Shown in pieces: positions 3,209 through 26,148 of a DNA stretch of 29,137 nucleotides. Source of the DNA: a virus. The position numbers and the translations under genes were made by a program. Location: IMG/VR virus record IMGVR_UViG_3300025168_000446, positions 1 through 29,137 of that record, one strand, 5' to 3'. Below the pieces are notes generated by a model. It saw only the letters and a list, made by a program, of their open reading frames with translations. It was not told the origin of the DNA and searched no databases. The first letter of the stretch is position 1, and every line of letters begins with the position of its first letter.

Positions 3209-3448
3209 ATGAGCTATATGAAATGGATTTATGCTATGGTTGTAGATAACAGCTATAATATATTTAAAATGATGTATCAACAAGCAGTTGAGAAAAATAT
3301 ATCAGCGTTTATGTTCCAAGGTTCGGAAATAAAAACAGCTTACGCTAAAAGTGTATGTGAATATGTAGACAAGCATTGTATGCCTGAATACGATCAACAC
3401 TTACAAGATACTGTTAATGACCGTGAACCAGATGAATTTACAACATGA
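3209..3448 (+). CDS. hypothetical protein, 79 residues
   Basis: Unrecognised small protein. Methionine- and tyrosine-rich near the N-terminus, helical in the middle, with an acidic C-terminus (DTVNDREPDEFTT). It contains two cysteines without a clear metal-binding pattern and no transmembrane segment. Its stop overlaps the polymerase start as ATGA (3445-3448), so it is co-translated with the DNA polymerase. A polymerase accessory role is a guess from position alone. Confidence 0.65.
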   Translation: MSYMKWIYAMVVDNSYNIFKMMYQQAVEKNISAFMFQGSEIKTAYAKSVCEYVDKHCMPEYDQHLQDTVNDREPDEFTT

Positions 3449-5334
3449 TATATTTTGTTACTTATAATAACGACATGTTCAACAATGACTTGTATTTTCA
3501 AGCTACTGTTGAAGATGCCGTTAATTATTGCAAAAGCAAGGAAATTCTTGCAGTTGATACCGAGACCACAGGTCTTAATTTTGTGCGTGATGACATAACT
3601 ATGTTTCAAATTGGTGATGATACTCATCAATATGTTATAGATGTGCGTGATTATCCATTAGTAATGTTTAAAGATATTTTAGAATCACCAAACATACTTA
3701 AGATATTTCACAACGCTAAATTTGACCTTAACTTTATCCGATACCATTGTGACATCAAATGTCAAAATGTGTATGACACTATGCTTACGGAAAAAGTTAT
3801 AAATTGTGGTAAAGAACTCAGTAACAGTCTTAAAAACACTGTTAAACGTTACCTCAACATTGAGCTTAACAAAAATGTGCAATCATCATTTATAGGTGGT
3901 ATAAATAAACAATTTACTACAAATCAAATTGTTTATGGTGCTAAAGATGTTGAATATCTTATTCAGATACACAACAAACAACAAGCACCTATCATTGTTA
4001 ACAAGCTTAAAAATGTTGTAGAACTAGAGAACCGTGCTGTGTTAGCATTTGCTGACATAGAATTTAACGGTATTTCCCTTGACTCAGACAAATGGATTAA
4101 ACTTAGCAAGAAATCATACTATGATGCTGAACTTTTGCAAGATATACTCAATCACTATGTGGTTGAAGACCATCGTATGCAAAAGTTTATACCTAAGTAT
4201 GTGCAAGGTGATTTGTTTGACACTGTTGAGAAACAAGTAGATATAAATTGGGATTCACCAAAGCAAGTGCTTGATGTATTTCAATGTATTATACCTAAAC
4301 TTGAAAATGTAAATGGCAAATCCATGTACAAGTATAGAAACAAATATCCTCTTATCAATGATTATGTTAAATACAAAGAAAAGATGAAGATAGCTACAAG
4401 CTATGGTGAAGCTTTCTTGAAGAATATTAACAAAGATGGTAAGATACACACTAGTTTCAATCAAATACTTGATACCGGTCGTGTAAGCAGCTCTAAGCCT
4501 AACATGCAGCAAATACCTGCAGATAATGCGTTTAGAAATTGTTTCACTGCACCAGATGGTTGGTCGTTTGTAAGTGCTGACTATGCTTCCCAAGAACTGA
4601 ATGTCATAGCTTTTGGTAGCCAAGATCCCGTGTGGATGAAAGCATTAGAAGATGGTCAGGACTTACACTCAACCTGTGCACAGCTTGTATACAAGAATGA
4701 ATGGGATTTTGCTGCTGAATATGATTGCTCTTACTTAGTTAATAAAAGTAAATGTAATTGTCCAAAGCACAAAAACCTACGTACTAATGTAAAGACTATT
4801 AACTTTGGTCTCGCATATGGTATGGGTCCTAACAAGCTTGCTGATACTCTCAACATATCTAAAGATGATGCAAAGCAACTCATTGAAGATTACTTCAGTG
4901 CGTTCCCTAACATCAAAGGCTTCCTTGAAAAGCTAGCTGATTTTGGTAAACAATATGGTTATATTAAAACCTTCCCACCGTTCAACCGGCGTCGTTGGTT
5001 TGTTAACTGGTTCCCAAAGATATGGAGTGATGAGTCAGCATCAATGGAGCTTAGTAGTATTGAACGTGCATCTAAGAATACACCAATTCAAGGTGCATCA
5101 GCAGATATGACTAAGCTTGCACTTGTATACATTTATGAGTATTTAGCTGATAAACAGCTGCCTGTTAAAGTTGTAATGACTGTGCATGATCAAATAGATA
5201 CTATCTGTGCAGACAGATATGTAGATAAATGGTCAGAAACTCTTACATATTTAATGGAGAAAGCAGCTAAGAAGGTAGTAACTAATGGTTTGCTTAAAGC
5301 AGACGTAAACATCAGTAAAGTATGGGAGAAATAA
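3445..5334 (+). CDS. family A DNA polymerase with 3'-5' exonuclease, 629 residues
   Basis: Replicative DNA polymerase similar in size and plan to T7 gp5. The proofreading domain shows Exo I DTET (D38, E40), Exo II NAKFD (D94) and Exo III YGAKD (Y164, D168). The polymerase domain shows TGRVSSSKPNMQQIP, motif A SADYASQELN (D379), motif B RTNVKTINFGLAYG (R446, K450, Y458) and motif C VHDQID (H581, D582). All catalytic carboxylates are present, so it should be active. An insertion between motifs A and B contains C428, C437, C439 and H442, which may bind zinc; this is unusual for the family. The gene overlaps both neighbours (4 and 13 bases), placing it in one operon with the DnaA-like, winged-helix and helicase genes. 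Confidence 0.97.
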   Translation: MIYFVTYNNDMFNNDLYFQATVEDAVNYCKSKEILAVDTETTGLNFVRDDITMFQIGDDTHQYVIDVRDYPLVMFKDILESPNILKIFHNAKFDLNFIRYHCDIKCQNVYDTMLTEKVINCGKELSNSLKNTVKRYLNIELNKNVQSSFIGGINKQFTTNQIVYGAKDVEYLIQIHNKQQAPIIVNKLKNVVELENRAVLAFADIEFNGISLDSDKWIKLSKKSYYDAELLQDILNHYVVEDHRMQKFIPKYVQGDLFDTVEKQVDINWDSPKQVLDVFQCIIPKLENVNGKSMYKYRNKYPLINDYVKYKEKMKIATSYGEAFLKNINKDGKIHTSFNQILDTGRVSSSKPNMQQIPADNAFRNCFTAPDGWSFVSADYASQELNVIAFGSQDPVWMKALEDGQDLHSTCAQLVYKNEWDFAAEYDCSYLVNKSKCNCPKHKNLRTNVKTINFGLAYGMGPNKLADTLNISKDDAKQLIEDYFSAFPNIKGFLEKLADFGKQYGYIKTFPPFNRRRWFVNWFPKIWSDESASMELSSIERASKNTPIQGASADMTKLALVYIYEYLADKQLPVKVVMTVHDQIDTICADRYVDKWSETLTYLMEKAAKKVVTNGLLKADVNISKVWEK

Positions 5335-7223: not shown

Positions 7224-7775
7224 ATGATTGTTGAACTAGATTTAAATATGCTTAAAGAGGTAGGTATGAGTCCTGATGACTTTACCTACCTTTATCTAGT
7301 TTATAAGAAGGGCAATAAATACAACCCACAGCTTAATCTTAAGCCAAACTTAGACAAACTTCAAGAGGAAGGTTACATCAAACTCGGTGATACAACAGAA
7401 AATCATGTTATTAGACACAAGTTTTTAGATTTATTTCTAGCAGACTTTGACAAGATGTTCAACGAGTTGATGTTAACCTATCCTATGAAGGTAAACTCTG
7501 ATAAAGGTGTCCGCATTTTACATGCTAAAGATCCTAACTCTAAGTCAAATCAAAAAGCAAAAGCTCGTTACAAAAGAATTGTTGACGGCAAGCCTCATGT
7601 CCATAAGAAGATAGTAGCTTGCCTAAACACCCAGCTAAAATTGGAGCGTAACAACTTAGGCTACATGCAAAACTTAGAAACATGGATTAACAATCATACT
7701 TGGGAAAAGTATGAAAATTTAGATGAAAATGACACACGAGACAAAACCAAACCACGAATCACAAGATCTCTTTAA
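7224..7775 (+). CDS. hypothetical protein, possible helicase loader or replisome organiser, 183 residues
   Basis: I do not recognise the family. The first half (MLKEVGMSPDDFTYLYLVYKK to LQEEGYIKL) has the look of a winged helix: a helix, a short turn and an 'EEGYIKL' wing strand. The second half is basic (SKSNQKAKARYKRIVDGK) and ends in a helical, tryptophan-containing tail. Phage helicase loaders are often encoded immediately before DnaB, and this gene overlaps the DnaB-like gene by 53 bases, so a loader or initiator role is a reasonable inference from position. The upstream ATG at 7219 hits a stop after one further codon, so ATG 7224 is the start. Confidence 0.65.
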   Translation: MIVELDLNMLKEVGMSPDDFTYLYLVYKKGNKYNPQLNLKPNLDKLQEEGYIKLGDTTENHVIRHKFLDLFLADFDKMFNELMLTYPMKVNSDKGVRILHAKDPNSKSNQKAKARYKRIVDGKPHVHKKIVACLNTQLKLERNNLGYMQNLETWINNHTWEKYENLDENDTRDKTKPRITRSL

Positions 7776-8697
7776 AGAAAAAGGATTTCATAGCATAGCA
7801 GACTCAGTAAATACCTCACTTAATGAGATAAAGAAAGGTATGCTTGGGCAGCGTGTGGTTTACCCCACTAAGTGGATAAGATTAAACAGAAACCTACTAG
7901 GTGGTCTGCAACCTGGCAAAATGTATGTCATAGCAGGTCGTCCAGGTGTAGGTAAAAGCGCATTCAGTAATCAGATGATCTTCGATCTCTTAGATACTAA
8001 CTCAAAGAAAAACTTAATGGTATTGTACTGGTCTTTCGAGATGCCTGGCCATCAGCAAATATTACGTGCTGGTGCTAAGGATGTCAAGAAAGAAGTGATG
8101 GATTTACTATCAGTACAAAACAAGTTAAGACAAGACGAGTATGATCTATATGCAGAGAAAGTTGCTGCTTATACTGAATATCCTATTTATTTTAATAACG
8201 TACCTAAAGACATAACATTTATTAAAAGGACTAATGCTGAGATAGCAGAGAGCTACCCGGACACTTTGGTCATAAATGTTTACGATCACTCTAGGTTAAT
8301 ATTAGCTAACGCCGATACAGAATTGCAAAAACTAAACCAAATATCAAAAGGGTGTATGTACATGCAAGCTAAATTTGGTGTTATTAATATACTGTTATCA
8401 CAATTAAATAGGAATATAGAACAAGAACATCGTGCCCGTAATCAGTACCAACCAATGCTAACAGATTTGTTTGGTGGTGACAGTATAGGTCAGGATGCTC
8501 ATGTTGTTATGATGCTACAGAGGCCATTTGACCTCTACGGTATTACAGATTTGTATTGCGATGAAGAGCCGGAAGGTTTGTTAGCGGTACACATCGAGAA
8601 AAACAGGGACGGCATGTTAGGTATGATACCATACGAAGCTGAACTTAGTACATTCACTATAAACGAAAGAAAATATGTTAATAACAAAAGTAAATAG
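7723..8697 (+). CDS. DnaB-like replicative helicase, 324 residues
   Basis: SF4 hexameric helicase of the RecA fold that unwinds the fork 5'-3'. Visible motifs are Walker A GRPGVGKS (72-79), H1a WSFEMPG, the Walker B region VINVYDHSRLI (D188), H3 SQLNR (226-230), DLFGGDSIGQDAHVV (arginine-finger region, as in 'GxIEQDAD') and EKNRDG near the C-terminus. It is shorter than bacterial DnaB (about 450) and lacks the N-terminal primase-binding domain, as in several phage helicases. The true start may be ATG 7729, two codons later. It overlaps the preceding gene by 53 bases and the next by 23. Confidence 0.92.
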   Translation: MKMTHETKPNHESQDLFKEKGFHSIADSVNTSLNEIKKGMLGQRVVYPTKWIRLNRNLLGGLQPGKMYVIAGRPGVGKSAFSNQMIFDLLDTNSKKNLMVLYWSFEMPGHQQILRAGAKDVKKEVMDLLSVQNKLRQDEYDLYAEKVAAYTEYPIYFNNVPKDITFIKRTNAEIAESYPDTLVINVYDHSRLILANADTELQKLNQISKGCMYMQAKFGVINILLSQLNRNIEQEHRARNQYQPMLTDLFGGDSIGQDAHVVMMLQRPFDLYGITDLYCDEEPEGLLAVHIEKNRDGMLGMIPYEAELSTFTINERKYVNNKSK

Positions 8698-9532
8698 AAA
8701 AGCCCTTGACATTAAAACAAGCGGTAGATCTACAGACTTTATTACACCTTCTTTTGGTCATGGCTGTTTGTACGATTGCAGTTACTGTTACATGAAACGT
8801 AACAAACCTAAAGGATTAACGATAGCACAGAATACAGGAGATATACTTACAGCAGTAAATAACCACGCATTCTTTACACACGTTAACAAACCTAATCAAA
8901 CACACGCGCAACACACTACTTACGACATTAGTTGTAACGAGGACTTTGCATTGCACCTTAGACATCACGACTGGGAGAACATCTTTGAGTTTTTTAGAAC
9001 TCACCCTATAGCCATGGGCTCGTTCGCTACCAAGTACGTGAACCCTAAGTTGATTGAGTATGACCCTGAAGGTAAAATACGAATACGTTTTAGTCTTATG
9101 CCTCAGCATATGGCTACACTTCATGAGCCTGCCACATCTAAAATTATTGATAGAATTAAAGCTATTAATGCATTTATAGATGCAGGGTATGACGTACATG
9201 TTAACTTTAGTCCTGTTATTATAACAGAAACATGGCTAGAGGATTACAAGCAGTTGTTTGGAATGCTGAATGATTATGTAGATTACAAAAAGCAAGTTCT
9301 TGCAGAAGTTATATTTCTAACTCACAACGAGAACAAGCACAGAGCTAATCTTATAGATAAACCGAATGCAGAAGCACAACTGTGGACACCAGATATACAA
9401 GAGGATAAGATCTCACAGTATGGAGGGAAAAACATTAGATACGAAAGACATCTTAAACGAGAATTAATTAACCAATTTACTAACCTTCATGATAACATTA
9501 TACCATGGAATAAAATAAGATACATATTTTGA
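8675..9532 (+). CDS. radical-SAM enzyme resembling spore photoproduct lyase, 285 residues
   Basis: The radical-SAM cluster motif is GCLYDCSYCY (C31, C35, C38), which binds a 4Fe-4S cluster that cleaves S-adenosylmethionine. The rest follows the spore photoproduct lyase plan: a YDISCNED segment with C87, a RIRFSLMPQHMATLHEPAT segment, and AINAFIDAGYDVHVNFSPVI. In the Bacillus enzyme a fourth cysteine about 40-50 residues after the cluster is the hydrogen donor; here C87 is 49 residues after C38. The protein has exactly these four cysteines. The expected activity is direct reversal of a thymine photolesion (5-thyminyl-5,6-dihydrothymine) in DNA. The phage substrate is unproven. It overlaps the helicase gene by 23 bases, tying it to replication. 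Confidence 0.85.
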   Translation: MLITKVNRKALDIKTSGRSTDFITPSFGHGCLYDCSYCYMKRNKPKGLTIAQNTGDILTAVNNHAFFTHVNKPNQTHAQHTTYDISCNEDFALHLRHHDWENIFEFFRTHPIAMGSFATKYVNPKLIEYDPEGKIRIRFSLMPQHMATLHEPATSKIIDRIKAINAFIDAGYDVHVNFSPVIITETWLEDYKQLFGMLNDYVDYKKQVLAEVIFLTHNENKHRANLIDKPNAEAQLWTPDIQEDKISQYGGKNIRYERHLKRELINQFTNLHDNIIPWNKIRYIF

Positions 9533-9801
9533 AAAAAGGATACTACGATTACGAGCCAATAGAAGGTAAACCAGAGTTTATTTCTAAAGGAAGACTCCCT
9601 GAATACAACAGAGAGAGAAGAGATGAAAAATTAAGAAAAGAAGAAGAAGCAAAGAAATCTAAATTTGTGACTGATGATGTATTTACATTACAATTTGGGT
9701 TTACATACCCTAAAACATATGCTAAATCATCTACAATAAATAGTGTGCCATACCCTAAAAACTTAGGTGCTAATGGCAAAATGAGCAGAAGGCATGGGTG
9801 A
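9529..9801 (+). CDS. hypothetical charged protein, TTG start, 90 residues
   Basis: Unrecognised. The only good start is TTG 9529, which overlaps the lyase stop as TTGA, mimicking the ATGA junctions elsewhere. The first half is very charged (EYNRERRDEKLRKEEEAKKSKF), and the second contains several prolines and tyrosines, ending in GANGKMSRRHG. It is probably partly disordered. It is the last gene before the structured gap 9802-10059. The non-ATG start means low or coupled expression. Confidence 0.6.
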   Translation: MKKGYYDYEPIEGKPEFISKGRLPEYNRERRDEKLRKEEEAKKSKFVTDDVFTLQFGFTYPKTYAKSSTINSVPYPKNLGANGKMSRRHG

Positions 9802-9803
9802 TT

Positions 9804-10040
9804 AAGAGTTAAACCCTGATAATGACAGTTACTCTTTGTAAGACTTCAGAACAAAACCTGTCAGCCTACATATTGCTAACACATAACTAGTGGTAATGTC
9901 TCAACAATACCAATAAGACCCCAGGTTATGTTGTTAGCTATTATACGATGAGCAAGCTGCGTGAGTGCTGCATACTTTTGCTGTAATTGAGGGGGAGGGG
10001 GTTATAAACTTGGTCGTCTATGCGGTCTTCCCCCAATTAC
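9804..10040 (+). other. structured non-coding region with several long hairpins
   Basis: The 258-base gap 9802-10059 lacks a credible gene but is full of pairing. TGACAG 9823-9828 pairs with CTGTCA 9858-9863. GCTAACACATAAC 9875-9887 pairs with GTTATGTTGTTAGC 9925-9938 (one bulge) and encloses TGGTA 9891-9895 with TACCA 9908-9912. AGCAA 9951-9955 pairs with TTGCT 9978-9982. GTAATT plus GGGGGA (9983-9996) pairs with TCCCCC plus AATTAC (10029-10040) across a GA bulge. The last hairpin runs into TTTATTTAAATT and the ATG at 10060. AAGAGT 9804-9809 with ACTCTT 9831-9836 is another option. It is likely an intergenic RNA, terminator-plus-leader, or replication signal; I recognise no family. Confidence 0.5.
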
Positions 10041-10059
10041 TTTATTTAAATTATATATT

Positions 10060-10293
10060 ATGGAATGGATTCCAGTTATAGTAGTAGGAGCTGTATTTGG
10101 CTTTATACTTTACCACACGTTAAAATCACCATTTAACCCAGAAGCTTATGAAAAAGAACAAAGGGCTATTATCGAAGATTCTCTGCGAAAGCCAAAAAAG
10201 AGGAAAAAGTATAAAAGTCGTGCAAAGGCTACTAAAGTTGAAGCACCACATCTCAGTAAGTCTAAACGTGCTAAAAAAAAGAATAAGGCATGA
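10060..10293 (+). CDS. small membrane-anchored basic protein, 77 residues
   Basis: A single N-terminal transmembrane helix (about residues 3-20, WIPVIVVGAVFGFILYHT) is followed by a strongly basic cytoplasmic tail (KKRKKYKSRAKATK ... SKSKRAKKKNKA). The basic tail could bind DNA or RNA at the inner membrane. It is the first gene after the structured region and overlaps the Sak4-like gene as ATGA (10290-10293), so it may tether recombination or replication complexes to the membrane. This role is inferred only from its topology and position. Confidence 0.7.
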   Translation: MEWIPVIVVGAVFGFILYHTLKSPFNPEAYEKEQRAIIEDSLRKPKKRKKYKSRAKATKVEAPHLSKSKRAKKKNKA

Positions 10294-10991
10294 GTAAACT
10301 ACCTAAGAAAAAAGTAAAAGCGAGTAGAAAATCACCAAAGAACATGATTATTTACGGTGCTCCTAAGATAGGTAAGACTACAGTGCTAGCTCAGCTAGAC
10401 GACTGTCTTATTATAGACTTAGAACAGGGCTCTGACATGTTAGATGCATTAAAAGTACAAGTAAATAGTCTAAAAGAACTAGGAGAGATAGGGAAAGAGA
10501 TATACCAAGAGGGTAAACCTTACAAGTATGTAGCTATCGATACTATCTCTAAGTTAGAAGAATGGTGTGAAGAAGAAGGTAAACAAATATACCTGAAGAC
10601 TCCAATGGGTAAAAACTTTGAACAAAAGAACCCAGGTATGTCTATCCTTTCATTGCCTAACGGTGCAGGTTATCTGTATCTTAGAATGGCATACAAGAAA
10701 TGGATAGATAGATTAAACACACTTGCCGATCATGTGATCCTTGTTGGTCACTTGAAAGACAAGATGCTTGAGAAGAAAGGTAAGGAAGTGGCTGTGAAAG
10801 ACCTCGACCTTACAGGTAAGATCAAGCAAATTACATGCGCAAACGCTGACGCAGTAGGCTATATCTATAGAGAAGACGATGTTACTATGGTATCATTTGA
10901 CTCACTAGGAGATGTAGTAGCCGGCAGTCGATGCGATCACTTAAAGGGTAAGACCATGCCTATGGAATGGTCAAAGATTTTTATTGATTAA
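10290..10991 (+). CDS. Sak4-like RecA-fold ATPase, 233 residues
   Basis: Phage RecA-like single-strand annealing/recombination ATPase of the Sak4 (AAA_24) type. Walker A is GAPKIGKT (23-30) and Walker B is YVAIDT (80-85), followed by ISKLEEWCEEEG. The later strand DHVILVGHLKDK is typical of the family. Basic residues precede the Walker A motif (KKKVKASRKSPKN). Sak4 proteins work with an SSB to promote strand annealing, and an SSB-like gene lies two genes downstream. All nucleotide-binding residues are present. The family name rests on motif order, so a different RecA-fold ATPase is possible. Confidence 0.85.
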   Translation: MSKLPKKKVKASRKSPKNMIIYGAPKIGKTTVLAQLDDCLIIDLEQGSDMLDALKVQVNSLKELGEIGKEIYQEGKPYKYVAIDTISKLEEWCEEEGKQIYLKTPMGKNFEQKNPGMSILSLPNGAGYLYLRMAYKKWIDRLNTLADHVILVGHLKDKMLEKKGKEVAVKDLDLTGKIKQITCANADAVGYIYREDDVTMVSFDSLGDVVAGSRCDHLKGKTMPMEWSKIFID

Positions 10992-11466: not shown

Positions 11467-12246
11467 ATGGCAATTAAATCAAACGCAAGTACGCAAGAAG
11501 TAGTAGGCTCAGGAATGAAACTATACTCAGGATTAACTAACGTAAACGTTATAGCAGTTAACCCTACAATGGCTGAATTACACGCCCTTGACATTAAAGT
11601 TAAGAGTGAGCCAAATTATGAAGTAGCCTTCAGTGATCAAGAATACAACAAAGTAGTGTTCTGGTTGGGTAATGAAGATACTAAAGTTAAATTAGAGGTA
11701 TTGGTACAACCAAAAGCTCGTGTATCTCAAAATGGTAAGAACCAGTACATTAATGCTATTGGTCAAACTACATGGTCAGAAGGGAAACCTACATTTGACT
11801 GGTGGAAAGCTACCGGTGAGAGACATGCTTTTGTTGGTGAAGAAACTCTTATCAACTTTGTTAAAGCGTGGGCTAACGTAGCCAACGGCGATGACGTAAG
11901 CTTTGAAACAGGTAAGAAAATCTCTAACGGTGACGTATCAGAGATCAAAGCGCTTGTTAGCGTGTTGAAAGACAATCAAGTACGTGTATTGGTAGGTGTT
12001 AAAGATGACAAGTACCAAACTGTATACACTAAGCACTTTGGTCGTGTTAAACCTCAACGTGATGATTTCTTTGTTCGTAACTTAAACGACGACTATGGAT
12101 CATTCAACGCTGACTTTAACGCTGACTTAGCATGGGGTACGCATAATCCAACCATTAACTTGGTTACTCCTGACTCGAAAGAGGATGAAGACTGGACTAT
12201 GCCAGACAAGCCTCTTAACAGTACAGAAGACGACTCTCCGTTTTAA
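11467..12246 (+). CDS. SSB-like single-stranded DNA-binding protein, 259 residues
   Basis: The body is rich in beta-type segments (LEVLVQPKARV, RVLVGVKDDKYQTVYTKHF) and aromatic residues suited to stacking on single-stranded DNA. The C-terminus is disordered and acidic and ends EDDSPF, like the DDxxPF tip of bacterial SSB that recruits repair and replication proteins. The length is larger than E. coli SSB (178) and close to T7 gp2.5 (232). It lies between the Sak4-like and primase genes, as expected. The family assignment rests on the tail, composition and context, not on a clear OB-fold motif. Confidence 0.7.
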   Translation: MAIKSNASTQEVVGSGMKLYSGLTNVNVIAVNPTMAELHALDIKVKSEPNYEVAFSDQEYNKVVFWLGNEDTKVKLEVLVQPKARVSQNGKNQYINAIGQTTWSEGKPTFDWWKATGERHAFVGEETLINFVKAWANVANGDDVSFETGKKISNGDVSEIKALVSVLKDNQVRVLVGVKDDKYQTVYTKHFGRVKPQRDDFFVRNLNDDYGSFNADFNADLAWGTHNPTINLVTPDSKEDEDWTMPDKPLNSTEDDSPF

Positions 12247-13247
12247 TGATTGCATCACGAAGTAGTGATGATTACCTGCATACAGATGTCATACTTAGTA
12301 AAATTACTGAGTATGACATTTTCAGGTATTATATCAGAGGGTTTAAAGAGCTTAACAAAAAGTTCTGTAGCGAGTTACGTGAAGACAATACTCCAACCGC
12401 TGCTATATATGTATGGAAGAACGCCTTATTATACAAGGACCACGGTCATCCAGAACATACCTTTAACTGCTTCAGATATATCCAAGCATCATTTAATTGT
12501 GATTGGATAACTGCGCTGCGTATGGTAGACAGAGATTTTGCTTTAGGTCTTTCTTATACTAAAGACGACGGATTATTTTCTATGGGAGCTCAGGGTGTTA
12601 AACGAAAACAACCTGATCTCGTAGAAAAACTTACACTTATACGTAAGAAACGTCGTAAATGGAATAAGGACGATGCAAAGTTTTGGTCTAAATATTATAT
12701 AAGTAAAGATATTTTAGTTAAATTTGGCGTCGAACCTATAGATTATTATTGGGTCAACGAACATAGATTTAGCTGTAAAACAATCACTTACGCATATAAG
12801 TTTGGTCAAAGATTTAAAATCTACGCACCAGAAGAAACAGAGCGCAAATGGACAAGCAATGTTAAAGCAGTAGACACTCAAGGTTGGAATCAATTGCCTG
12901 AACAAGGTAATTTAGTTATTCTAACATCTTCGTTAAAAGACATCATGACTCTATATTCTGCAGGGTATCCCGCAATTGCTATGCAAAGCGAGATGCAAAT
13001 ACCAGCAGAAAAAGTAATAGAGAGTCTTAAGGAAAGATTTGCAAAAATCTTGGTTCTTTATGATAATGATTATGATAAAGCTACCAATCCAGGACAGATG
13101 ATGGGCAACAAGATCTGTATGAAGTATGGCCTAATAAATGTGTGTATTCCTAGTGAGTATGAATCGAAAGATCCATCTGACCTAGTTAAGAATACAAACA
13201 TAGCTATACTAAATCAGATAATTGATGAACAAAGAGGAGATAGTTGA
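12246..13247 (+). CDS. DnaG-like TOPRIM primase, 333 residues
   Basis: RNA primase for lagging-strand synthesis. The N-terminal region (about 40-95) has the layout of the CHC2-type domain (FCSELREDNTP ... LLYKDHG ... FNCFRYIQ), but only C41, C75 and C85 remain, so the zinc site is degenerate. The TOPRIM domain begins NLVILTSSLKDIMTLYSAGYPAIAMQSEMQIP (222-253), followed by VLYDNDYDKATNPG with D273 and D275. The glutamate usual in the first TOPRIM motif (VEGxxD or TEGxxD) is S here (TSSLKD, D232). It follows the SSB-like gene with a one-base stop/start overlap and precedes the SbcD-like gene. It is shorter than bacterial DnaG and has no helicase-binding tail. Confidence 0.8.
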   Translation: MIASRSSDDYLHTDVILSKITEYDIFRYYIRGFKELNKKFCSELREDNTPTAAIYVWKNALLYKDHGHPEHTFNCFRYIQASFNCDWITALRMVDRDFALGLSYTKDDGLFSMGAQGVKRKQPDLVEKLTLIRKKRRKWNKDDAKFWSKYYISKDILVKFGVEPIDYYWVNEHRFSCKTITYAYKFGQRFKIYAPEETERKWTSNVKAVDTQGWNQLPEQGNLVILTSSLKDIMTLYSAGYPAIAMQSEMQIPAEKVIESLKERFAKILVLYDNDYDKATNPGQMMGNKICMKYGLINVCIPSEYESKDPSDLVKNTNIAILNQIIDEQRGDS

Positions 13248-14773: not shown

Positions 14774-15120
14774 CAAGACATGAGAAAGTAAATGCTCTCC
14801 AACGAGGAGACATAATAGCCGTTGTTCAACACAACGGCTTTTCTTTTGCTATATTTTGGGGATGGGATGGTAACGGTTATACATCAGAAGATGGTCAAGA
14901 TCGTAAAGCTTGGTATTATACAATACCTGAATTTACATTATCAAAATCCGGTATGAAAGAGTATTTTGATAAGATTAGAGCAGGAGAAAATAAATGGTTT
15001 CCTGGCGCTATATCTTGGACAACTAATTACGCTGAATTAAAAGTATTACCTATACCTAAAACCTATCTATCAGAATATCAACAAGAGTATGTTAATTTAT
15101 TAAATAACAAATTAAGATGA
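14770..15120 (+). CDS. hypothetical protein, 116 residues
   Basis: Unrecognised. It begins TRHEKVNALQRGDIIAVVQHNGFSFAIFWGWDGNGYTSEDG, a beta-rich, tryptophan-containing segment suggestive of an SH3-like barrel, and is helical at the C-terminus (SEYQQEYVNLLNNKLR). The longer frame could start at 14737, but ATG 14770 overlaps the preceding stop as ATGA, the usual junction here, so I prefer it. Its own stop overlaps the rIIA-like start as ATGA (15117-15120). No catalytic motif is visible. Confidence 0.65.
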   Translation: MTRHEKVNALQRGDIIAVVQHNGFSFAIFWGWDGNGYTSEDGQDRKAWYYTIPEFTLSKSGMKEYFDKIRAGENKWFPGAISWTTNYAELKVLPIPKTYLSEYQQEYVNLLNNKLR

Positions 15121-17924
15121 GTATAAAAACCATTGACACACAGATTAAAGGCTCTAAAGGGATCGAGAAAAAGATCAACGAAGGGGCAAAGAGAATGGTC
15201 TTTGACATTCTGCAATCAACGCAGTATTCTATGCCAATTTCGAGTACCATCCGCGAGCTCACAACTAATGCTTGTGATTCACAGAGGGAGAAAGAAATAG
15301 CATTAGAAATACTAAGTGGAGAGAAGAAAGCAGAAGACTATTACATTACGCGCTCAGGCGCACAGTACGAAGACAGTAACTTTAATGCAGAGTACTACAA
15401 TGTTTTACATCTAGACAAGCATAAGAATAAGATAGATCTTACTTATATTGAAAGTGAAGGTGTAGGCTATTGTGATACATTTGCAGTAATGGACTACGGC
15501 GTAGGTATTGGTGCACGCAGACTAGAGGGTGTCCTAGAATTAGGATATTCTACTAAGCGTAACACATCAGAAAACTTTGGTGCGTTTGGCTTAGGTGCTA
15601 AAGCAGCATTGTCTACCGGCGTTGATTTCTATACTATAGAAACTGTCTACAACGGAATGAGATTTAAATGTAATTGCTACAATTACAAGACTGATTTCAT
15701 TATACCAGCTTTCAATGTAGAAGCAGGTAAACAAAACCCATTTGTTACATTCTCAGATGGTACTAAAGTATATTATGAAGAATCAGATTCTAAGAATTAC
15801 ACGGAAGTAAGCTTCAGAACTAAGAAACATAACAGACGTAAGTACAAAGAAGCTATAGAAGAGCAACTAAATTACTTAAACAACGTTAACTTTTCAATTG
15901 TAGGCGAAAGCGGCTATGTAAATGAAGTTAACTTTAAGAACGATGTGATTTACAGCTCAGAGCATCTTATTATCAGTGATGGCTATACATATTCTAAACC
16001 ACATGTACTTGTGGTAAAGAATCCGCAAGCTGAAACAGGTATTAACTATGGTCACATAGATTTCCGAGAATTAGAAATGGAGCAACTGTATGGCGCTATT
16101 GCATTCAAATGTCCTATGAGACAGGTTGTAGTAGATGACAACGGCGTGGAAACAGTTATACAAGAAGGTGTTGACGTAACTCCATCGCGTGAGAAGGTAA
16201 TATGGAACGAAGCTACTAAAGCGTATGTTCAAGGTATTATTAAGAAAGCTGCGATAGAGGCTACTAATGTAGTCCAGGAAGAGCTAGACACTAAGGATTT
16301 CATTGATTGGATTTCTAAGACTCGTGCACTTGTTAGTGGTGCTCGTAGTGAGAATCGTGTTCTAAACAAACTATCTAATATTATAGATAAAGACATGATT
16401 AGTCCTACGTTCCCTGGTGATAAACGTATACGATACGCAGTTCCTACTAAGTTATTCGAAGGATTTAAGATTACTAAGCTTTTATATGAAGTTGAGAAAG
16501 GTAAATTTAAATCTGTAAGAGATGACAAATTAGTAGTGTGGGGCGGTATAGAGCCTAAGCATTTCTATTTTAAAGAGAATGTATCTTTCAATAGATTGAC
16601 GGATGCATATCTTATTAAAGGTGGAGAACAGGAATGTCGTCCTTCAGTACTTACTCTGGAAGATCTAGATGCTAAGTTTGACAGTAAGATTGCTATAGCT
16701 CAAGGAGAAGGTAAGCTTGCATTAACTAAAGAAAAGAATAGAGTTGCTCGTAAACGTGCAGCTGTACTTAAGTACTTTAAAGAGTCTGAGTTTTATCATT
16801 CTTATGATGATGTAGTAGTACCTGAAGACTGGACTACGGAGTTCACTACAGAAGAAGATCAAGCTATGGAAGTATCCAAGTTTGATAACATTTCTCCTGC
16901 AGAGCGCCGTGAGATAGAAAAGCGTATGGTTGCTTATTCTCTTAGATTTGATAAGAGACGTAATGATAATAAACAGTACACCCTTGACAAGATAGAGCCA
17001 AAGGCCAAAGATCTTATGGAAAGCGAGTCTCGTATTTATTATTGCACTAAAGCAGATGAAGATTTAATGCATCTAGCTGCTAAAATCTTACATGTGCAAG
17101 CTCCTAGCTTTAAAGAAGTTTACCCAGAGAATACATGGTCTAGTTGGGATACTGATCAGCAGCACCCAATATTCTATTATGAAGAACCAGCTGTTTCTCT
17201 TAGAGAGACATATGGAAGCAACAAAGGTAATTTCTATGACTGGACTGCAAAAACAGTTAAGACATGGGATACGCCGCAGTTGATTAGGGTAAGTGAAAAT
17301 AAAGTTAAATACATCAAGAAGAATCCAAATTGTAAACACATTAGTGAGTTCTTCTTACAAATGAATGATAAAGGAGGATACACAATGGATGATTCAATGA
17401 TTACATGGTTTACAGCTACTAAAGTAACTGAAATACAAGATCTTAAATTCTTATCAAGCTTTAAAAGGATTAATCCTGGGCTTCACAAGATCTACAAGAA
17501 AGTTATTAAAGCTAGAGAAAATTCATTTGAATACTACAGACACAGAAATCTAGACGAAACTGATGTGTTTAAGCAAGCTGAAAAGCTTATGGAGTTTCAA
17601 TTGTATTGTAAACAAGTAGAAAGCGAGGCTAACTCAGCTGAGCTAATTAGTAACAAAAGTAAGGAATTGTTTGTTCTATCTGATATAGGAGAATGTGTAG
17701 GCGTTAACATGGAGGTGCTAGATATGTATAACAACATACTAGAATTTTCTGAAGATGTTAAGCACTTACTTTCTGCTATAGAAGGTATAAACGAAAATAA
17801 ATCTATGACTCTAGACTTAGAGAAAGAGATAATTTCTTACTTAGAATGTAAAGGTAAAAACGAGTGGGATGTCAGTGACGTCCTGCCGGAAGAACCTGAA
17901 TTAGAGGAAGATAGCGCACAATAA
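15117..17924 (+). CDS. rIIA-like GHKL ATPase, 935 residues
   Basis: A large protein whose N-terminus is a GHKL (gyrase B/Hsp90/histidine kinase/MutL) ATP-binding domain. The N box is IRELTTNACDS (E47, N51, D54), G1 is DYGVG (126-130) and G2 is ENFGAFGLGAKAALS (152-166). These match T4 rIIA, which protects against host and prophage exclusion systems. The remaining 600 residues are unrecognised. The next gene is rIIB-like, matching the T4 rIIA-rIIB order. It is much longer than many small GHKL domains, so MutL or Hsp90 is unlikely. A stem-loop lies over its stop codon. Confidence 0.85.
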   Translation: MSIKTIDTQIKGSKGIEKKINEGAKRMVFDILQSTQYSMPISSTIRELTTNACDSQREKEIALEILSGEKKAEDYYITRSGAQYEDSNFNAEYYNVLHLDKHKNKIDLTYIESEGVGYCDTFAVMDYGVGIGARRLEGVLELGYSTKRNTSENFGAFGLGAKAALSTGVDFYTIETVYNGMRFKCNCYNYKTDFIIPAFNVEAGKQNPFVTFSDGTKVYYEESDSKNYTEVSFRTKKHNRRKYKEAIEEQLNYLNNVNFSIVGESGYVNEVNFKNDVIYSSEHLIISDGYTYSKPHVLVVKNPQAETGINYGHIDFRELEMEQLYGAIAFKCPMRQVVVDDNGVETVIQEGVDVTPSREKVIWNEATKAYVQGIIKKAAIEATNVVQEELDTKDFIDWISKTRALVSGARSENRVLNKLSNIIDKDMISPTFPGDKRIRYAVPTKLFEGFKITKLLYEVEKGKFKSVRDDKLVVWGGIEPKHFYFKENVSFNRLTDAYLIKGGEQECRPSVLTLEDLDAKFDSKIAIAQGEGKLALTKEKNRVARKRAAVLKYFKESEFYHSYDDVVVPEDWTTEFTTEEDQAMEVSKFDNISPAERREIEKRMVAYSLRFDKRRNDNKQYTLDKIEPKAKDLMESESRIYYCTKADEDLMHLAAKILHVQAPSFKEVYPENTWSSWDTDQQHPIFYYEEPAVSLRETYGSNKGNFYDWTAKTVKTWDTPQLIRVSENKVKYIKKNPNCKHISEFFLQMNDKGGYTMDDSMITWFTATKVTEIQDLKFLSSFKRINPGLHKIYKKVIKARENSFEYYRHRNLDETDVFKQAEKLMEFQLYCKQVESEANSAELISNKSKELFVLSDIGECVGVNMEVLDMYNNILEFSEDVKHLLSAIEGINENKSMTLDLEKEIISYLECKGKNEWDVSDVLPEEPELEEDSAQ

Positions 17925-17947
17925 GTTGCGCATCTTCTTAAAATTTT
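17907..17947 (+). terminator. terminator-like stem-loop over the rIIA stop
   Basis: GAAGAT 17907-17912 and GCGCA 17914-17918 (one bulged A between them) pair with TGCGC 17927-17931 and ATCTTC 17932-17937 across the loop CAATAAGT. The loop contains the stop codon TAA (17922-17924). TTAAAATTTT follows. The A-interrupted tail makes it a weak terminator or an mRNA-end stabiliser between the rIIA- and rIIB-like genes. Confidence 0.5.
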
Positions 17948-17983
17948 GTAATTTAGTAACTCAATTTAATAAACAGAAAACAG

Positions 17984-19153
17984 ATGATTACAGTTAACGT
18001 TATCGACGACAAAATCTGCGGCTCTTACGGTGACACACCGTTTGCAGTGCAGTACACAGAAGACACTTATGCAGAAATGATGGAGCTTGTAGATGAATCC
18101 GCATCCGTACAGGATATGGACGCATATAAAGACCTTATGTCTAAATTTGCTGCTCTTTGTGTTGTAGACTATACTAAAACAGTAGAGTCAAAATGCCCTT
18201 ACATTCATGTAAACAAGAATACAGGCGAGTTCTTCCTTAAGAGTGAAGGAGTTGTTTCTTCTATTCCTATGCCTCAAGCGTTGGTAGATAGAATATTCGA
18301 GTCTATTGACAAGGGTGTATCATTTGAGCCACTAGTTAAAATGTGGACCAGATGGTTGCGTAATCCTGTATTAGCAAAGAAAGCTGAATGTGATAGAGGA
18401 ATAGATTTCTCTAATCGCTTCTTTAACTTTGTTAATATGCAGTATGTGCACCCTAAACTTAAAGAAGAGCTCATGGAAGAGCAAGGTCTAAGTGAAGCAA
18501 TTGCTACTGCTCGTGCTACTATGTATCAAATGAAGATTACTCGTGAGGGTCTTCTTAATGGTTACAAAGTATCTAAAGAGATTATGCATAAGTATGACAC
18601 AGAAACAGGGGAGCAAGTAGATCGTTACGCTCGTACGTTCAATCCTGATACTGGTGAAATACAAGGAGATGGCCTTCCTGAGCACGTAGAAGACCGCCTA
18701 TTTGAACCTGCAATGATGGGTTCAGGTGGAGATGCGTTTTATTGCGAAGGTGATAACGGGTATTCATCTCCTCAACATTTCATTAAAGTTGGTTGTGTTC
18801 ACAGATTAGCTTCTTGGGACCAAGTCAATACTAATGATTTTACATCTTGCGTAAAAGGTCTTCATATTGGTGGCCTTAAGTATATCGCGTTCTATTCAGG
18901 TGAGATTCACAATATATTTGCGGATCCTATGCACATTGGTGCAGTGCCTGATGATGTAGACGGTGCTATACGTTGCAAGCAATACTTTGTTCATTCTTCT
19001 CTTGCAGGAGTAAATGGATCAATTTACCACAGTTCAACCTATGCAGCTATGACTGATGCCGAATGGCAAGAAATGCGGACAGAAGCAGTAAAGGTAAAGT
19101 TAGAAAGCAAAGCTCAAGTTGACAGAGAAGTCGCTGAGCTGAATGCTTTGTAA
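17984..19153 (+). CDS. rIIB-like protein, 389 residues
   Basis: The C-terminal half has the rIIB hallmark: FTSCVKGLHIGGLKYIAFYSGEIHNIFADPMHIGAVPDDVDGAIRCKQYFV, with C289, G292, L293 and H294 (compare the 'CSxGLHV' segment of T4 rIIB). The N-terminal part may be a regulatory or DNA-contacting region. T4 rIIB acts with rIIA to prevent premature membrane depolarisation by prophage exclusion systems. The gene follows the rIIA-like gene after a 59-base spacer with a stem-loop, so its level could be set separately. A strong terminator follows. Confidence 0.75.
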   Translation: MITVNVIDDKICGSYGDTPFAVQYTEDTYAEMMELVDESASVQDMDAYKDLMSKFAALCVVDYTKTVESKCPYIHVNKNTGEFFLKSEGVVSSIPMPQALVDRIFESIDKGVSFEPLVKMWTRWLRNPVLAKKAECDRGIDFSNRFFNFVNMQYVHPKLKEELMEEQGLSEAIATARATMYQMKITREGLLNGYKVSKEIMHKYDTETGEQVDRYARTFNPDTGEIQGDGLPEHVEDRLFEPAMMGSGGDAFYCEGDNGYSSPQHFIKVGCVHRLASWDQVNTNDFTSCVKGLHIGGLKYIAFYSGEIHNIFADPMHIGAVPDDVDGAIRCKQYFVHSSLAGVNGSIYHSSTYAAMTDAEWQEMRTEAVKVKLESKAQVDREVAELNAL

Positions 19154-21168: not shown

Positions 21169-24100
21169 TTATGTTTTAGATGTTTTGTGTTGAGGGTAAA
21201 TTTCCATAGCTTTTGCTAACGCACCTAAGCCGGGAGCTAATTTAAATGTGTAATACCCTGCCTCTATACGATCAGTCTCAACCCCTTGCTTACCAGTTAG
21301 TCTATCACCAAGTTCGTCTGCACTATTGTTTAAAAGCTTAATACCATCTTGCACTAACCCAAGTAAAGGTATACCTGTAGATCGTGGTCCTACAAATTCT
21401 GTTGGATCCCAAAATACAGCTGTTTCTCTATATACTCTATTAAGAACATTATATGTTTTTCTTCCTAACCAGCTTTGACGTATATCAATTTTGCCGTCGT
21501 CATCCCAGTCACCGCCTAACCCCATTACAAGTAGTCCTAATAAAATAACTGCTCTTAATTCAGATAAAGTACCTCTAAGATTTCCTCGTTTCATTTCTAA
21601 AAACTTCTGAAATGCAGCTTCTCGTTTTGCTGGATCTCCTTTAAAATCAAAATCTGCATCTTCTGTTCTATCAGCTAAGAATAACTCAAACTCTTGCTGA
21701 GCTTTTCCTTCTTTTATAGTGTGCGAATTAGTTAAACCAAAGGTCCCAATATCTAATGTTATTTTACCTATATCAACTAAAGTGGCTGCTAAAAATTCTG
21801 TCATAGCAAACTCAGCTTTAACTAAGTCTCCCATACTATCAAATTCTGCATCAGGCCCAAAGTTCCCAAAGAAGCCTCTCCAGGTACCTTGATCAAAATG
21901 TTCTAAAATATGGTCATATCTTGTTATACCAAAACGTTCTAACGCTAATCCTGGTAACCATGATCTATAATGTAAGAAAAATCTGTTGATAAGTTTCATA
22001 CCTGCAGTGTTAATTGCTTCAGGAGACGCTGTACCTTTTATTTTGTTACTTATGATTCCATGTCTAGCCCTTAAACTGTTAAAAGAATTTTCTGTTTCAT
22101 TTGGAACTTTTACAAAATATTTATTCTGAGCTCCACTAAAAGTATATTTATCGTTATCTGTAACTTCCATAGAGTCGTAGACAGATTTAGTACCATCTGG
22201 TAACTCTGCTAGTCTTTTTAAATTACCTTCAGAATCTATACCATGATTTTTAGCCATAGCAACGGCTAATATAGTATCTACTTGTAAATCAGCTTGAGCT
22301 AAAAATTCAAACCAACGATCACCAGTCATAAACTTTGCGCGGTAATTACTAGACAACATTTCCCCTTTACGTTTTGACACATCTAGTACAGCTAATTGGA
22401 AATGCTCCATCACAGCTCTAACTTTAGGATCTCTTTTTATAATTGCCGCTTCCGCCTCTAACACCTGCTTGTTGTTAAAGTGTAAACCTTTAGATCCTTG
22501 AATGTGTACTCCTATAATACCAGCTACTCCAGCACCTACAGCTACAGGAACTTTTAAACCAAGAGCTCCAACAGATGCGTAGTTCTTTAAAGTTAATCCT
22601 GTTTTAACTAAACTTATATCATCGCCTACAATAACATCTTTATCTTTTAAAGTCCTACCGTATAAAGCATTGTCTATAACATCAGTAAAGTTTTGCGCAT
22701 TCGTTTGTGCAGTATTAAATACGTTGTGCACTTGACCAAAAGCTTTTTTTACTGCTGCCCCTTTTCTATCTTCTGCTATTTCATTTACAAGACCTTCTTG
22801 AAGTATAAGCTCTATAAGTAATAGCTCATCTTCTATTTCTCTTTTCATGTCATATTCAAAAGCAGATTGCCCTAATAAATACAATGATCTACTTAGTTCT
22901 GTAGATTTTAGTTGAGGTTTAATTTTATCATTACCAAACTCATCTTTTTCTGTAAGAGGAGTAGTAAATATACGAGGTATATGTCTGATAGGATTTCCTT
23001 TATCATCGATCATACCAAACAAATGATTTACATCATGCCCTTTTGCTTTAAATCTATCTGATATAGAAGCTTTAAATGAGTCTATTTTGTTATTAGATTC
23101 CAATAGTGCGTCTGTTGACGATTTGTTAACCCAAGCTACATAAGTGTTACCTAGATTTTTACCAAATTTATCCCCAAACTCTTTAATTTTATTAACGTGA
23201 AAATCATAATAAGATTTTAATCTTGAGTCACTTTGAATTTCTTTAAATTCATCCGTAACATATTCTTGAGTAGCTTCTTCGTTAATGTTTAACCAGTATT
23301 TACCTGCATCTAACCAGGCTTGAGTACTGTTTAATAAGTCATACCTTTTATTCCATTTAACTTTAGCTGCTTTTATACCTGCTTTGTTTGTAGGACCAAA
23401 ATGTTGTTCTATACGATTGTACTCACGTTTTTGCCACTCAGGAAAATCTCTATTAAATCTTTCTAGATTTATTGTGTGATGTTTTTTCATCCACAAATGA
23501 TCTCCCTTTTCTATGCGGTCATTTTTTATGTCGTAAAACTCTGTTTTATATTTGGCATATAAATTATGAGTATCACTATTTAATATTTTTTGTTCATACA
23601 CCTCTCTAAGAGACATACCGTTTTCTTCTGCATACTGTTTAAGTAGTTCGTCTTGAGCTTCTATCTCTGCTATAAGCTTAGCTTCAAACTTAACTTTAGC
23701 CCCATTAGCTTTATTCATAACATTTGTTACATATCTACTATAAGGGTTAGATTGCTGAGATACATTGATATAAGAATTAACTTTAGATTGAATTCTGTTA
23801 TATCTAAAATTATTAATACCTTTTTCTTTTGCTCTCATATCCATACGGTCAACCATAAACTCTTCTAGAGCTTTAATAGTTGTACCGATACTAAAAGAAG
23901 CACTTTCTAACTTTTTAACTAGTTCTTTACTATTTTTAGTATTAGATTTTTTAATTTTATTAGAAACATCATTTAATGTTGTATAAGCTTGAAAATGTAT
24001 TAACTCTCCATACACTTCTCTTAATTGTTTTTCTGATAAGTACTTTGGATTTAAAACTTGCTCTCCCTCTTTAGTTATAAATTCGTCATGCACACCTATA

Positions 24101-26145
24101 CCAGCCTCTGCAACACGAACTATTTTAAAAATGTTAGTTAGCCCAATACTTATATCTTTATTATGTTGAAGAGCTCTAATCATTGCAAGAGATTCATTTA
24201 TAACTTCATCTAAAGCAGCTCTATCTGCAAAAGGTGCATTTTTACGTTGTACTACAAGCTTCTTATATCTCCTCATTTCAGACTCTATAAGATTGTTAAC
24301 TTGTTTGTCATCTGTAGTCTCTTGCGCAACTGGTATAGGTCGTAGCCAATCTAATGTTGTTCCATCTAAAGATTCTATTTGACTTTTAGCGTCTTTTTTT
24401 GATAATATAGAAGGATCTACATAAGCCTCTAAAGCTGTTAATGAATTAGATAACCTCCCATCTTTAGACTCATAACGAACCGCTACAGGTACTATCCGGG
24501 ATTGTCGAACTCTTGTTACACCATACTTAGACAACAAGGCGTCTTTATAGTGACCAATTTGTGAATCGTATCCTTCTAAACTGCTAGCAAACATATCACC
24601 AGTAATACTTAGTCTACCTCTTCTTTCTTTAGAATATTGCGCATTAGAGCTTTTAAACTTATAATCATAAATAGAAGCAGATCCATCACTGTATAGGACT
24701 AACATATCGATAGTACCCCCAACCTGATTCTTTTCATCTGCTATAAATTGCTCTTTACGTATTACATATTTACCTTTAGTACCATTTTGTTTGTTTATAG
24801 CTTTTTGTTGGTCATCAATAGTTTTCTTTAAAGACTTCATAGCTAAACTTAGTCTATTGACATGCTCAGCTTTCATCATGCTACCTACACCTTGTATAAT
24901 TGCATTAATGCTTCCTTTACCTTCAAAATGGTAATCAATTAGATCTTCCATAATCAAGTGGCCTTTAGTACCCATAGCCATACGAATATTTTGATTATGC
25001 ATGTCTAATTCTTTTTCAGACTCACTTTTATATCCTACAAATTTTTGTTTAAATATTTCTGCTGTCCTATCTGACCCACGAAACTTTAATTCTTTACCTT
25101 TATATGGGCCTGCAATAGCTACGTACCTATTTATAGTAGAATCATCTCCTGCTATCTTTTTCCAATGACGTTTTAAATCATCGTTAGTAACTTTATCTAT
25201 TGTTATTTCCTTGTTTTCATAATTTTTAGAATCCTCGTCTAACTGATCGAGTATACTTTTACTTAAATCTTCTTGATAAAATACTCCGCTAACCTCTATA
25301 CCGGCAGGGTCACTCTGCATTACATTTTCTAGACTACGATTTACAACTCCAAGCGCTGCTTCAGCAAAGGGATCTGTCTGTGTTTTTCCAAACATTTTCG
25401 ATAACATGTTTAGAACTCTTTGCCACCATCTTTCTAGTCTCGATACTTTCTCTTTCTTTTCATTTGCCACATCTCCGTTAATAAGATGCTTTGTTATTAC
25501 TTTAGCTATAGCCTCTCTTTTAAGTAGATCTATATCGCCATTGTACTTTTTGTAGTAAAACCCATCTGGGTTAGCTACTTCTTTATATTCACTATAGTCC
25601 TGTATCATGTTGTACATAGACTTAAACAAAGGATTACCATCAGCTCTCAAAACTTCCACAATAAAGTGCACAGTCTCTTCGGTCAGTGTAGACATGTCTG
25701 CTTTACCAGTAACTAGCTGCACCGTCCTATTAGTAAGATCTGCTAAACCTGTAGCATTTATAGTTTCACCTCTATCATTTGTTAAAGTATCAACTGTTTC
25801 TACTTTTACGCCAATCTTATCTAAAAAGTAAAAAAGATCATTTTGTAGTTGCTGGTTAGCTTCAGAAAATTTTAGCTCTTTGCTTATGTTATTCCATTTG
25901 TCAAAATTATCGTTAACATCCATTAAGACATTTTGTACAATGTTATTTACTAAAGCAGGCTCTTGTAAAATACCAATATTTGCCGCGTCGTTAGTTGCTT
26001 TAAGGTAAGCTGCGTAAGCAAGATCCTCATTTCTACCATCGTTAATCAAAGAATTCATTTCTTTAAACAAAGGAGATTCTTGGCCGTACCGTGTTTTTAC
26101 AGTTTCTATTTTACCTTCAGTACTTCTTTCTATTCTACACGACAT
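21169..26145 (-). CDS. giant multidomain phage protein with PD-(D/E)XK nuclease, 1658 residues
   Basis: A very large protein of the kind crAss-like phages package in the head. In order: an N-terminal region with the segment TEETVHFIVE (155-164), which recalls degenerate zinc-protease motifs; a PD-(D/E)XK nuclease module with GGTIDMLVLY (D480) and SIYDYKFKS (D494, Y495, K496), like Cas4/RecB nucleases; long charged helical stretches (about 700-1100); a glycine/alanine-rich hydrophobic segment near 1190-1220; a membrane-like segment ILLGLLVMGLGG near residue 1520; and an EF-hand-like loop DWDDDGKIDIRQ. This looks like an ejected, membrane-interacting protein that may process DNA. It starts 3 bases after the RNA polymerase stop, so the two are co-transcribed. 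Confidence 0.8.
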   Translation of the reverse strand: MSCRIERSTEGKIETVKTRYGQESPLFKEMNSLINDGRNEDLAYAAYLKATNDAANIGILQEPALVNNIVQNVLMDVNDNFDKWNNISKELKFSEANQQLQNDLFYFLDKIGVKVETVDTLTNDRGETINATGLADLTNRTVQLVTGKADMSTLTEETVHFIVEVLRADGNPLFKSMYNMIQDYSEYKEVANPDGFYYKKYNGDIDLLKREAIAKVITKHLINGDVANEKKEKVSRLERWWQRVLNMLSKMFGKTQTDPFAEAALGVVNRSLENVMQSDPAGIEVSGVFYQEDLSKSILDQLDEDSKNYENKEITIDKVTNDDLKRHWKKIAGDDSTINRYVAIAGPYKGKELKFRGSDRTAEIFKQKFVGYKSESEKELDMHNQNIRMAMGTKGHLIMEDLIDYHFEGKGSINAIIQGVGSMMKAEHVNRLSLAMKSLKKTIDDQQKAINKQNGTKGKYVIRKEQFIADEKNQVGGTIDMLVLYSDGSASIYDYKFKSSNAQYSKERRGRLSITGDMFASSLEGYDSQIGHYKDALLSKYGVTRVRQSRIVPVAVRYESKDGRLSNSLTALEAYVDPSILSKKDAKSQIESLDGTTLDWLRPIPVAQETTDDKQVNNLIESEMRRYKKLVVQRKNAPFADRAALDEVINESLAMIRALQHNKDISIGLTNIFKIVRVAEAGIGVHDEFITKEGEQVLNPKYLSEKQLREVYGELIHFQAYTTLNDVSNKIKKSNTKNSKELVKKLESASFSIGTTIKALEEFMVDRMDMRAKEKGINNFRYNRIQSKVNSYINVSQQSNPYSRYVTNVMNKANGAKVKFEAKLIAEIEAQDELLKQYAEENGMSLREVYEQKILNSDTHNLYAKYKTEFYDIKNDRIEKGDHLWMKKHHTINLERFNRDFPEWQKREYNRIEQHFGPTNKAGIKAAKVKWNKRYDLLNSTQAWLDAGKYWLNINEEATQEYVTDEFKEIQSDSRLKSYYDFHVNKIKEFGDKFGKNLGNTYVAWVNKSSTDALLESNNKIDSFKASISDRFKAKGHDVNHLFGMIDDKGNPIRHIPRIFTTPLTEKDEFGNDKIKPQLKSTELSRSLYLLGQSAFEYDMKREIEDELLLIELILQEGLVNEIAEDRKGAAVKKAFGQVHNVFNTAQTNAQNFTDVIDNALYGRTLKDKDVIVGDDISLVKTGLTLKNYASVGALGLKVPVAVGAGVAGIIGVHIQGSKGLHFNNKQVLEAEAAIIKRDPKVRAVMEHFQLAVLDVSKRKGEMLSSNYRAKFMTGDRWFEFLAQADLQVDTILAVAMAKNHGIDSEGNLKRLAELPDGTKSVYDSMEVTDNDKYTFSGAQNKYFVKVPNETENSFNSLRARHGIISNKIKGTASPEAINTAGMKLINRFFLHYRSWLPGLALERFGITRYDHILEHFDQGTWRGFFGNFGPDAEFDSMGDLVKAEFAMTEFLAATLVDIGKITLDIGTFGLTNSHTIKEGKAQQEFELFLADRTEDADFDFKGDPAKREAAFQKFLEMKRGNLRGTLSELRAVILLGLLVMGLGGDWDDDGKIDIRQSWLGRKTYNVLNRVYRETAVFWDPTEFVGPRSTGIPLLGLVQDGIKLLNNSADELGDRLTGKQGVETDRIEAGYYTFKLAPGLGALAKAMEIYPQHKTSKT

Positions 26146-26148
26146 AAT

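Follow-up and report, generated by a model that had tools for sequence, protein, structure and literature searches.

We found that a crAss-like phage fragment encodes a shortened member of the spore photoproduct lyase (SPL) family of radical SAM enzymes, with a cysteine at the predicted hydrogen-donor position. The fragment is the whole 29,137-nt stretch of DNA that was analyzed, referred to here as the window. SPL is the textbook spore enzyme, and its lesion, spore photoproduct (SP), is characteristic of spores and dry DNA. A predicted shortened SPL relative with the key catalytic residues intact is also encoded by hundreds of related sequences from uncultivated viruses. We suggest, with slightly more confidence than doubt, that this N-terminally shortened phage enzyme, probably of Bacteroidota-type origin, restores TpT in UV-damaged phage DNA.

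The SPL-like open reading frame (8675-9532, + strand) starts with ATG and encodes 285 amino acids. A sequence-only reading had taken the product for an SPL-like radical SAM enzyme, and this identity is borne out by two profile families, phmmer and the predicted fold. The protein matched the Pfam SPL family PF20903 (E = 5e-28; 98.4 bits versus a cut-off of 27), a cut-off also passed in 15 of 15 related contigs searched. It matched SPL of Geobacillus thermodenitrificans (GtSPL, 4fhc) by phmmer with E = 6e-12. Such scores lie well beyond chance. The Pfam Radical_SAM profile alone scored 19.1, below its cut-off of 29.5; both marks of the radical SAM superfamily were found, the CxxxCxxC motif (C31, C35, C38) and, in a structural model, the core barrel fold. 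The nearest model was TIGR03886 (E = 7e-96; 321.4 bits, below the equivalog cut-off of 437.55). The match starts at profile position 62, and positions 1-61 are unmatched in the window protein. TIGR04070, the spore photoproduct lyase sensu stricto that reverses 5-thyminyl-5,6-dihydrothymine, scored 88.5 bits, below its equivalog cut-off of 400. Judged by these scores, the window protein is not a canonical SPL, and its nearest family, TIGR03886, comprises the SPLs of bacteria that do not sporulate. A closer relationship to another radical SAM family had been named as evidence against the earlier assignment. It was found only in the weak sense that TIGR03886 is a sister subfamily (321 versus 88 bits), and the protein stays within the SPL family.

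The predicted fold agrees with this assignment. An AF2 model based on 46 aligned proteins of the window and the loci had a mean pLDDT of 94, and its top six PDB matches in Foldseek were all SPL entries. VIA-align superimposed 275 of the 285 residues on chain residues 61-341 of the GtSPL-substrate complex 4fhf (Z 30.6, rmsd 2.1). Other radical SAM families gave Z of at most 14.2 (viperin, 13.6). A full-length viral relative, L188, aligned with SPL across 338 residues (Z 39). The prediction for the phage enzyme is thus an SPL barrel lacking the first ~60 residues. Generic radical SAM similarity, including that to viperin, would also be expected of an enzyme that edits bases or nucleotides or of a counter-defense protein, neither acting in repair, and the gene shifts among early-gene positions as an accessory gene might (see below). 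But SPL stands at Z 30 against at most 14 for the other families listed, and the donor cysteine is retained at the SPL position. We regard a function outside repair as improbable.

The residues expected of an SPL are largely in place. The window protein has cysteines only at 31, 35, 38 and 87. The first three lie in the cluster motif CLYDCSYC, and C87 is 49 residues past C38 in the context YDISCNED, just as the sequence-only reading had described for the 285-residue product. By MAFFT alignment, CLYDCSYCY (8765-8791, +) contains the putative [4Fe-4S] cluster ligands C31, C35 and C38 together with the radical-relay tyrosines Y37 and Y39, equivalent to Gt Y96 and Y98. Alignment with characterized SPLs, the check proposed for C87 (8933-8935, +), placed it on the hydrogen-donor cysteine (Gt C140, Bacillus (Bs) C141) in three ways: by phmmer against 4fhc, by MAFFT with a mixed set, and by HHalign of the viral profile against five canonical-type SPLs (probability 99.7). 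The MAFFT set left out L160, L161, L162 and L185 (duplicates), L166 (truncated) and L170 (another family). According to one study, this cysteine is very likely the direct hydrogen donor of SPL, and Y99 (Bs)/Y98 (Gt) continues the radical relay with support from Y97 (Bs)/Y96 (Gt); the Bs C141A variant yields TpTSO2- in dithionite (PMC3742179).

K120 (9032-9034, +; MAFFT) and Y249 match Gt K174 and Y305. Two other positions are changed: E89 replaces Gt S142, and Q248 replaces R304 (Q248-Y249, equivalent to R304-Y305, 9416-9421, +; MAFFT and HHalign). We take K174 to belong to the substrate site, R304-Y305 to act in lesion recognition, and S142 and R304 to contact the substrate. Because both changes fall on these presumed contacts, the lesion may differ from spore photoproduct.

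We found the same residues across the viral relatives. In three overlapping scans of viral sequences, 153 of 163, at least 567 of 600, and at least 593 of 600 pattern-bearing stretches encoded relatives. From the best 80 of each scan we obtained 196 loci, which collapsed to 142 distinct proteins, a sample that leans to close relatives. Among these 142, 138 are short, with the same length as the window protein, and 4 are full length (L187-L190). The donor position in this best-80 set holds Cys in 138 proteins, Glu in three (L187, L188 and L190) and Thr in L252, the single short protein of the 138 with Thr there. Equivalents of Gt C90, C94, Y96, C97 and Y98, and a Lys at the K174 position, occur in 142/142 of the same set; Glu replaces S142 in 136 of these and Gln replaces R304 in 129. 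Near the C-terminus, at a site that holds a Cys in cellular TIGR03886 proteins (Gt position 335; N279 in the window protein, 9509-9511, +), 136 of the 142 have Asn. The Glu-type genes of L190 (a 321-kb viral contig), L187 and L188 are full length, and no crAss-type portal was found there.

Relatives outside these scans were few. A tblastn search of 50,697 sequenced-phage records gave one remote match (24% identity over 60%; a 335-aa protein with Tyr at the donor position). No gene of this kind was found in 126 records with a crAss-like portal, unless the remote-match record is one of 66 unlisted. In the literature searched, outside which most subscription journals lie, we found neither a description of a viral SPL gene of this type nor an enzyme assay of a viral or TIGR03886 SPL. 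Tyr also takes the donor position (YDTDL or YDCDS) in a distinct SPL-like radical SAM family, found in a gut phage record and in bacterial genomes (L159 (MT835514.1), L165, L167-L169 and L176-L179).

Repair of SP by the phage enzyme is the best reading of these data. We infer that the enzyme is active, that SP is its substrate, and when it acts. The phage SPL would be produced together with the replication proteins in crAss-like phages. C31, C35 and C38 would hold the [4Fe-4S] cluster used for SAM cleavage, and the resulting 5'-deoxyadenosyl radical would abstract H6 of the cross-linked thymine pair, so that the bond breaks. The thymine methyl radical would then take a hydrogen from C87, and Y39, supported by Y37, would pass the radical back to SAM. 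Whether UV struck the phage DNA inside the virion or inside the infected cell, TpT would be restored ahead of the polymerase, with no need for light. The same fold and radical chemistry could also act on some other thymine adduct or dimer, one that arises in wet, packaged or modified DNA, with the E89 and Q248 changes retuning the lesion pocket. The frequency of these two changes in the best-80 viral set is consistent with this, as are two features of the closest relatives in cells: they do not score as sporulation enzymes, and they are found in bacteria that form no spores, Deinococcus among them. But the donor Cys, both tyrosines and K120 are kept as in canonical SPL, and we consider another substrate possible rather than probable.

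The SPL gene is under purifying selection. Comparison of the window gene with nine relatives gave dN/dS values of 0.07-0.12. None of the 196 locus proteins was shorter than 270 aa (0/196), in a sample of best matches that is biased to intact copies. The gene can be missing: in a close relative, L260, dnaB is followed directly by the Sak4 ATPase gene with no SPL between. An empty slot would fit a gene that is merely carried along and does nothing for the phage, but selection already disfavors that explanation, as does the absence of short copies among these best matches, and we think it very improbable.

In the window, the SPL gene lies among replication genes. The gene for a DnaB-like replicative helicase (7723-8697, +) overlaps the start of SPL by 23 nt at its 3' end, and a 90-aa ORF with a TTG start (9529-9801, +) overlaps the SPL stop by 4 nt. 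A homologue of the 90-aa ORF also follows SPL in other loci. Because of these overlaps, expression of SPL with the replication genes is likely. Downstream is an AAA_24/Sak4-like ATPase gene (10290-10991, +; profile searches). The interval 9802-10059 gave no significant signal of structured RNA (z -0.8). At the end of the early region is a gene for a dATP/dGTP diphosphohydrolase-like protein (PF18909; 20718-21134, +).

The position of SPL varies among the viral loci. We used the other window genes as markers, and 117 of 142 loci from the best 80 of each scan hold at least one. The nearest upstream marker in these 142 loci was dnaB in 32, the SF2 helicase gene in 28, o14342 in 11 and polA in 4. 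The order RIIA-SPL-RIIB was found in 12 of the 142, and the remaining arrangements were varied, including loci cut by a contig end. The RIIA-like and RIIB-like genes adjoin in the window (15117-19153, +) and have SPL between them in other crAss-like contigs. The sequence-only reading had SPL traveling with the helicase; with DnaB nearest upstream in only 32 of 142 loci of the best-80 sample, this fails as a rule. Since the nearest markers vary and L260 is without SPL, we view the gene as an early-region accessory that is kept while its place changes. The slot after dnaB in L259 (6180-6990) has ~0.8 kb without an ORF of at least 50 aa. A decayed SPL was considered there, and no convincing SPL trace was found (best E 0.08). 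The slot had no match to an Rfam family, and short stretches of it are common to window positions 9949-9973.

By its replication genes and their order, both of crAss type, the window is part of a crAss-like phage genome. DNA polymerase A (3445-5334, +) and DnaB have crAss-like proteins as their first phage matches, and the primase (12246-13247, +) is homologous to that of cr108_1. Two large ORFs of 1658 and 982 aa (21169-29097, -) have homologues solely among crAss-like phage proteins. At the contig end (26149-29097, -) is a GADYDIDK motif. The DYDID-type motif presumably resembles the catalytic motif of the crAss-like virion RNA polymerase, which suggests that the large minus-strand ORF encodes such a polymerase. 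A crAss-type terminase and portal are absent from the 29-kb window and present in the sister contigs G001 and G002, whose SPL proteins are 93% and 89% identical to that of the window. Among 25 records searched, many of them fragments, 9 had the portal and 8 the terminase. To our knowledge, Bacteroidota do not form endospores. The non-spore-forming hosts expected earlier agree with this host phylum, which we assigned via Crassvirales; members of Crassvirales infect Bacteroidota (PMC10136315).

Cellular TIGR03886 proteins fall into two types. Proteins above the TIGR03886 cut-off were sparse. In the class of G018 (presumably Alphaproteobacteria) they occurred in 1 of 289 genomes, and in one of its orders in 5 of 297; for the class of G017 (presumably Bacteroidia) the counts were 1 of 295 and, in one order, 35 of 291. 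The proteins of 30 of the latter 35 genomes were read (29 new plus L174). Of 35 cellular TIGR03886 proteins read in all, 22, all from the Bacteroidia order, have both the donor Cys and the near-C-terminal Cys, and 13 have Glu at the donor position with the near-C-terminal Cys. Seven proteins from plasmid records (two Deinococcus, Methylobacterium, Aureimonas, Roseomonas, Nonomuraea and Streptomyces) all have Glu at the donor position, and six, all except that of Streptomyces, have the near-C-terminal Cys. One TIGR03886 branch thus has Glu in 20 of 20 cellular relatives (13 + 7) and the near-C-terminal Cys in 19. Trees were built from 46 and 53 chosen rows. In a tree built without both Cys columns, the donor Cys needs two changes and is most simply ancestral. 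The nearest cellular rows to the window by identity are the Bacteroidia Cys/Cys proteins, leaving aside L098 and L164, MAG contigs that may be of phage origin. The phage gene likely came from the host phylum, from a Bacteroidota-type TIGR03886 lineage, on a tree whose outgroup branch is long and whose branching among the three big groups is tentative.

Just two of the tabulated TIGR03886-type proteins, viral and cellular together, lack Cys at both sites: L252 (Thr, Asn) and Streptomyces L154 (Glu, Leu). This pattern fits a second possible donor, and relatedness alone could also give it: exchange between the two cysteines on the tree comprises only 2 independent pairs and has no statistical power. 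In Roseomonas (L153, 2299-4420) and in three Bacteroidia genomes (G797:C1, G786:C35 and G778:C1), SPL-family genes of two subfamilies occur in close proximity, which suggests a working pair.

Some cellular relatives lie near repair genes. In five annotated regions, one TIGR03886 gene adjoins dinB, with a uracil-DNA glycosylase gene next to dinB, one adjoins a photolyase gene, and one is two genes from a ddrO paralogue. The neighbors in the other two are not repair genes, apart from a second SPL-family gene adjoining in Roseomonas. One paper predicts that LexA controls splB homologues in alpha- and beta-Proteobacteria (PMC3323433); another reports that UV induces an SPL family gene of Curtobacterium and notes that SP forms after the B- to A-form transition in dried DNA (PMC12029717). 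Photolyase (PF03441) and pyrimidine-dimer glycosylase (PF03013) were each found in 0 of 16 contigs, a weak result as the contigs may be fragments.

We tentatively propose a broader scheme, which we hold as a minority possibility. The condensed DNA of crAss-like virions would gain SP under UV, and these phages would bring a light-independent SP lyase; packaged phage DNA would have to be similar enough to dried A-form DNA for SP to form. The donor would have moved within the family: one branch would have changed Cys to Glu and would use the near-C-terminal Cys, and the phage branch would have retained the original donor and lost the near-C-terminal one. A large viral SPL branch that keeps the donor Cys, in contrast to the Glu of many bacterial relatives, would make two questions testable: whether SP arises in packaged phage DNA, and what role SPL relatives play in bacteria that do not form spores. 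How radical SAM enzymes quench radicals could be studied on the Cys/Glu switch and its candidate second Cys, a natural experiment, and the phage protein, small and standing alone, is a practical assay target.

The window resembles cr108_1 (Crassvirales, Steigviridae) in the order helicase/nuclease, hypothetical, DnaB, ATPase, two hypotheticals and primase, and in its homologous PolA, primase and large ORFs. In contrast to the window, the DnaB helicase gene of cr108_1 overlaps the ATPase gene with no SPL between, and the matched proteins are only about 20-30% identical. The phage enzyme shares with the Geobacillus thermodenitrificans and Bacillus SPLs (SplB; 4fhc, 4fhf; TIGR04070) the predicted fold, the cluster motif and equivalents of Gt Y96, Y98, C140, K174 and Y305. 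It differs from them in sequence (24-28% identity), in having no ~60 N-terminal residues, in the S142 to E and R304 to Q changes, and in a phage replication context with no SplA gene adjoining. The TIGR03886 type of Deinococcus, Alphaproteobacteria and Actinomycetota is 38-43% identical over 98% of the protein; unlike the phage enzyme, all 20 proteins of this type examined carry Glu in place of the donor Cys, and 19 have the near-C-terminal Cys. The Bacteroidia type (22 proteins, e.g., L288-L293 and L305) is full length (343-350 aa) and has the near-C-terminal Cys where most viral proteins have Asn, but it is 45-52% identical to the phage protein (tree rows), has a donor Cys in YDIGCNSD, and shares with it the C-terminus IPW-IRYIF.
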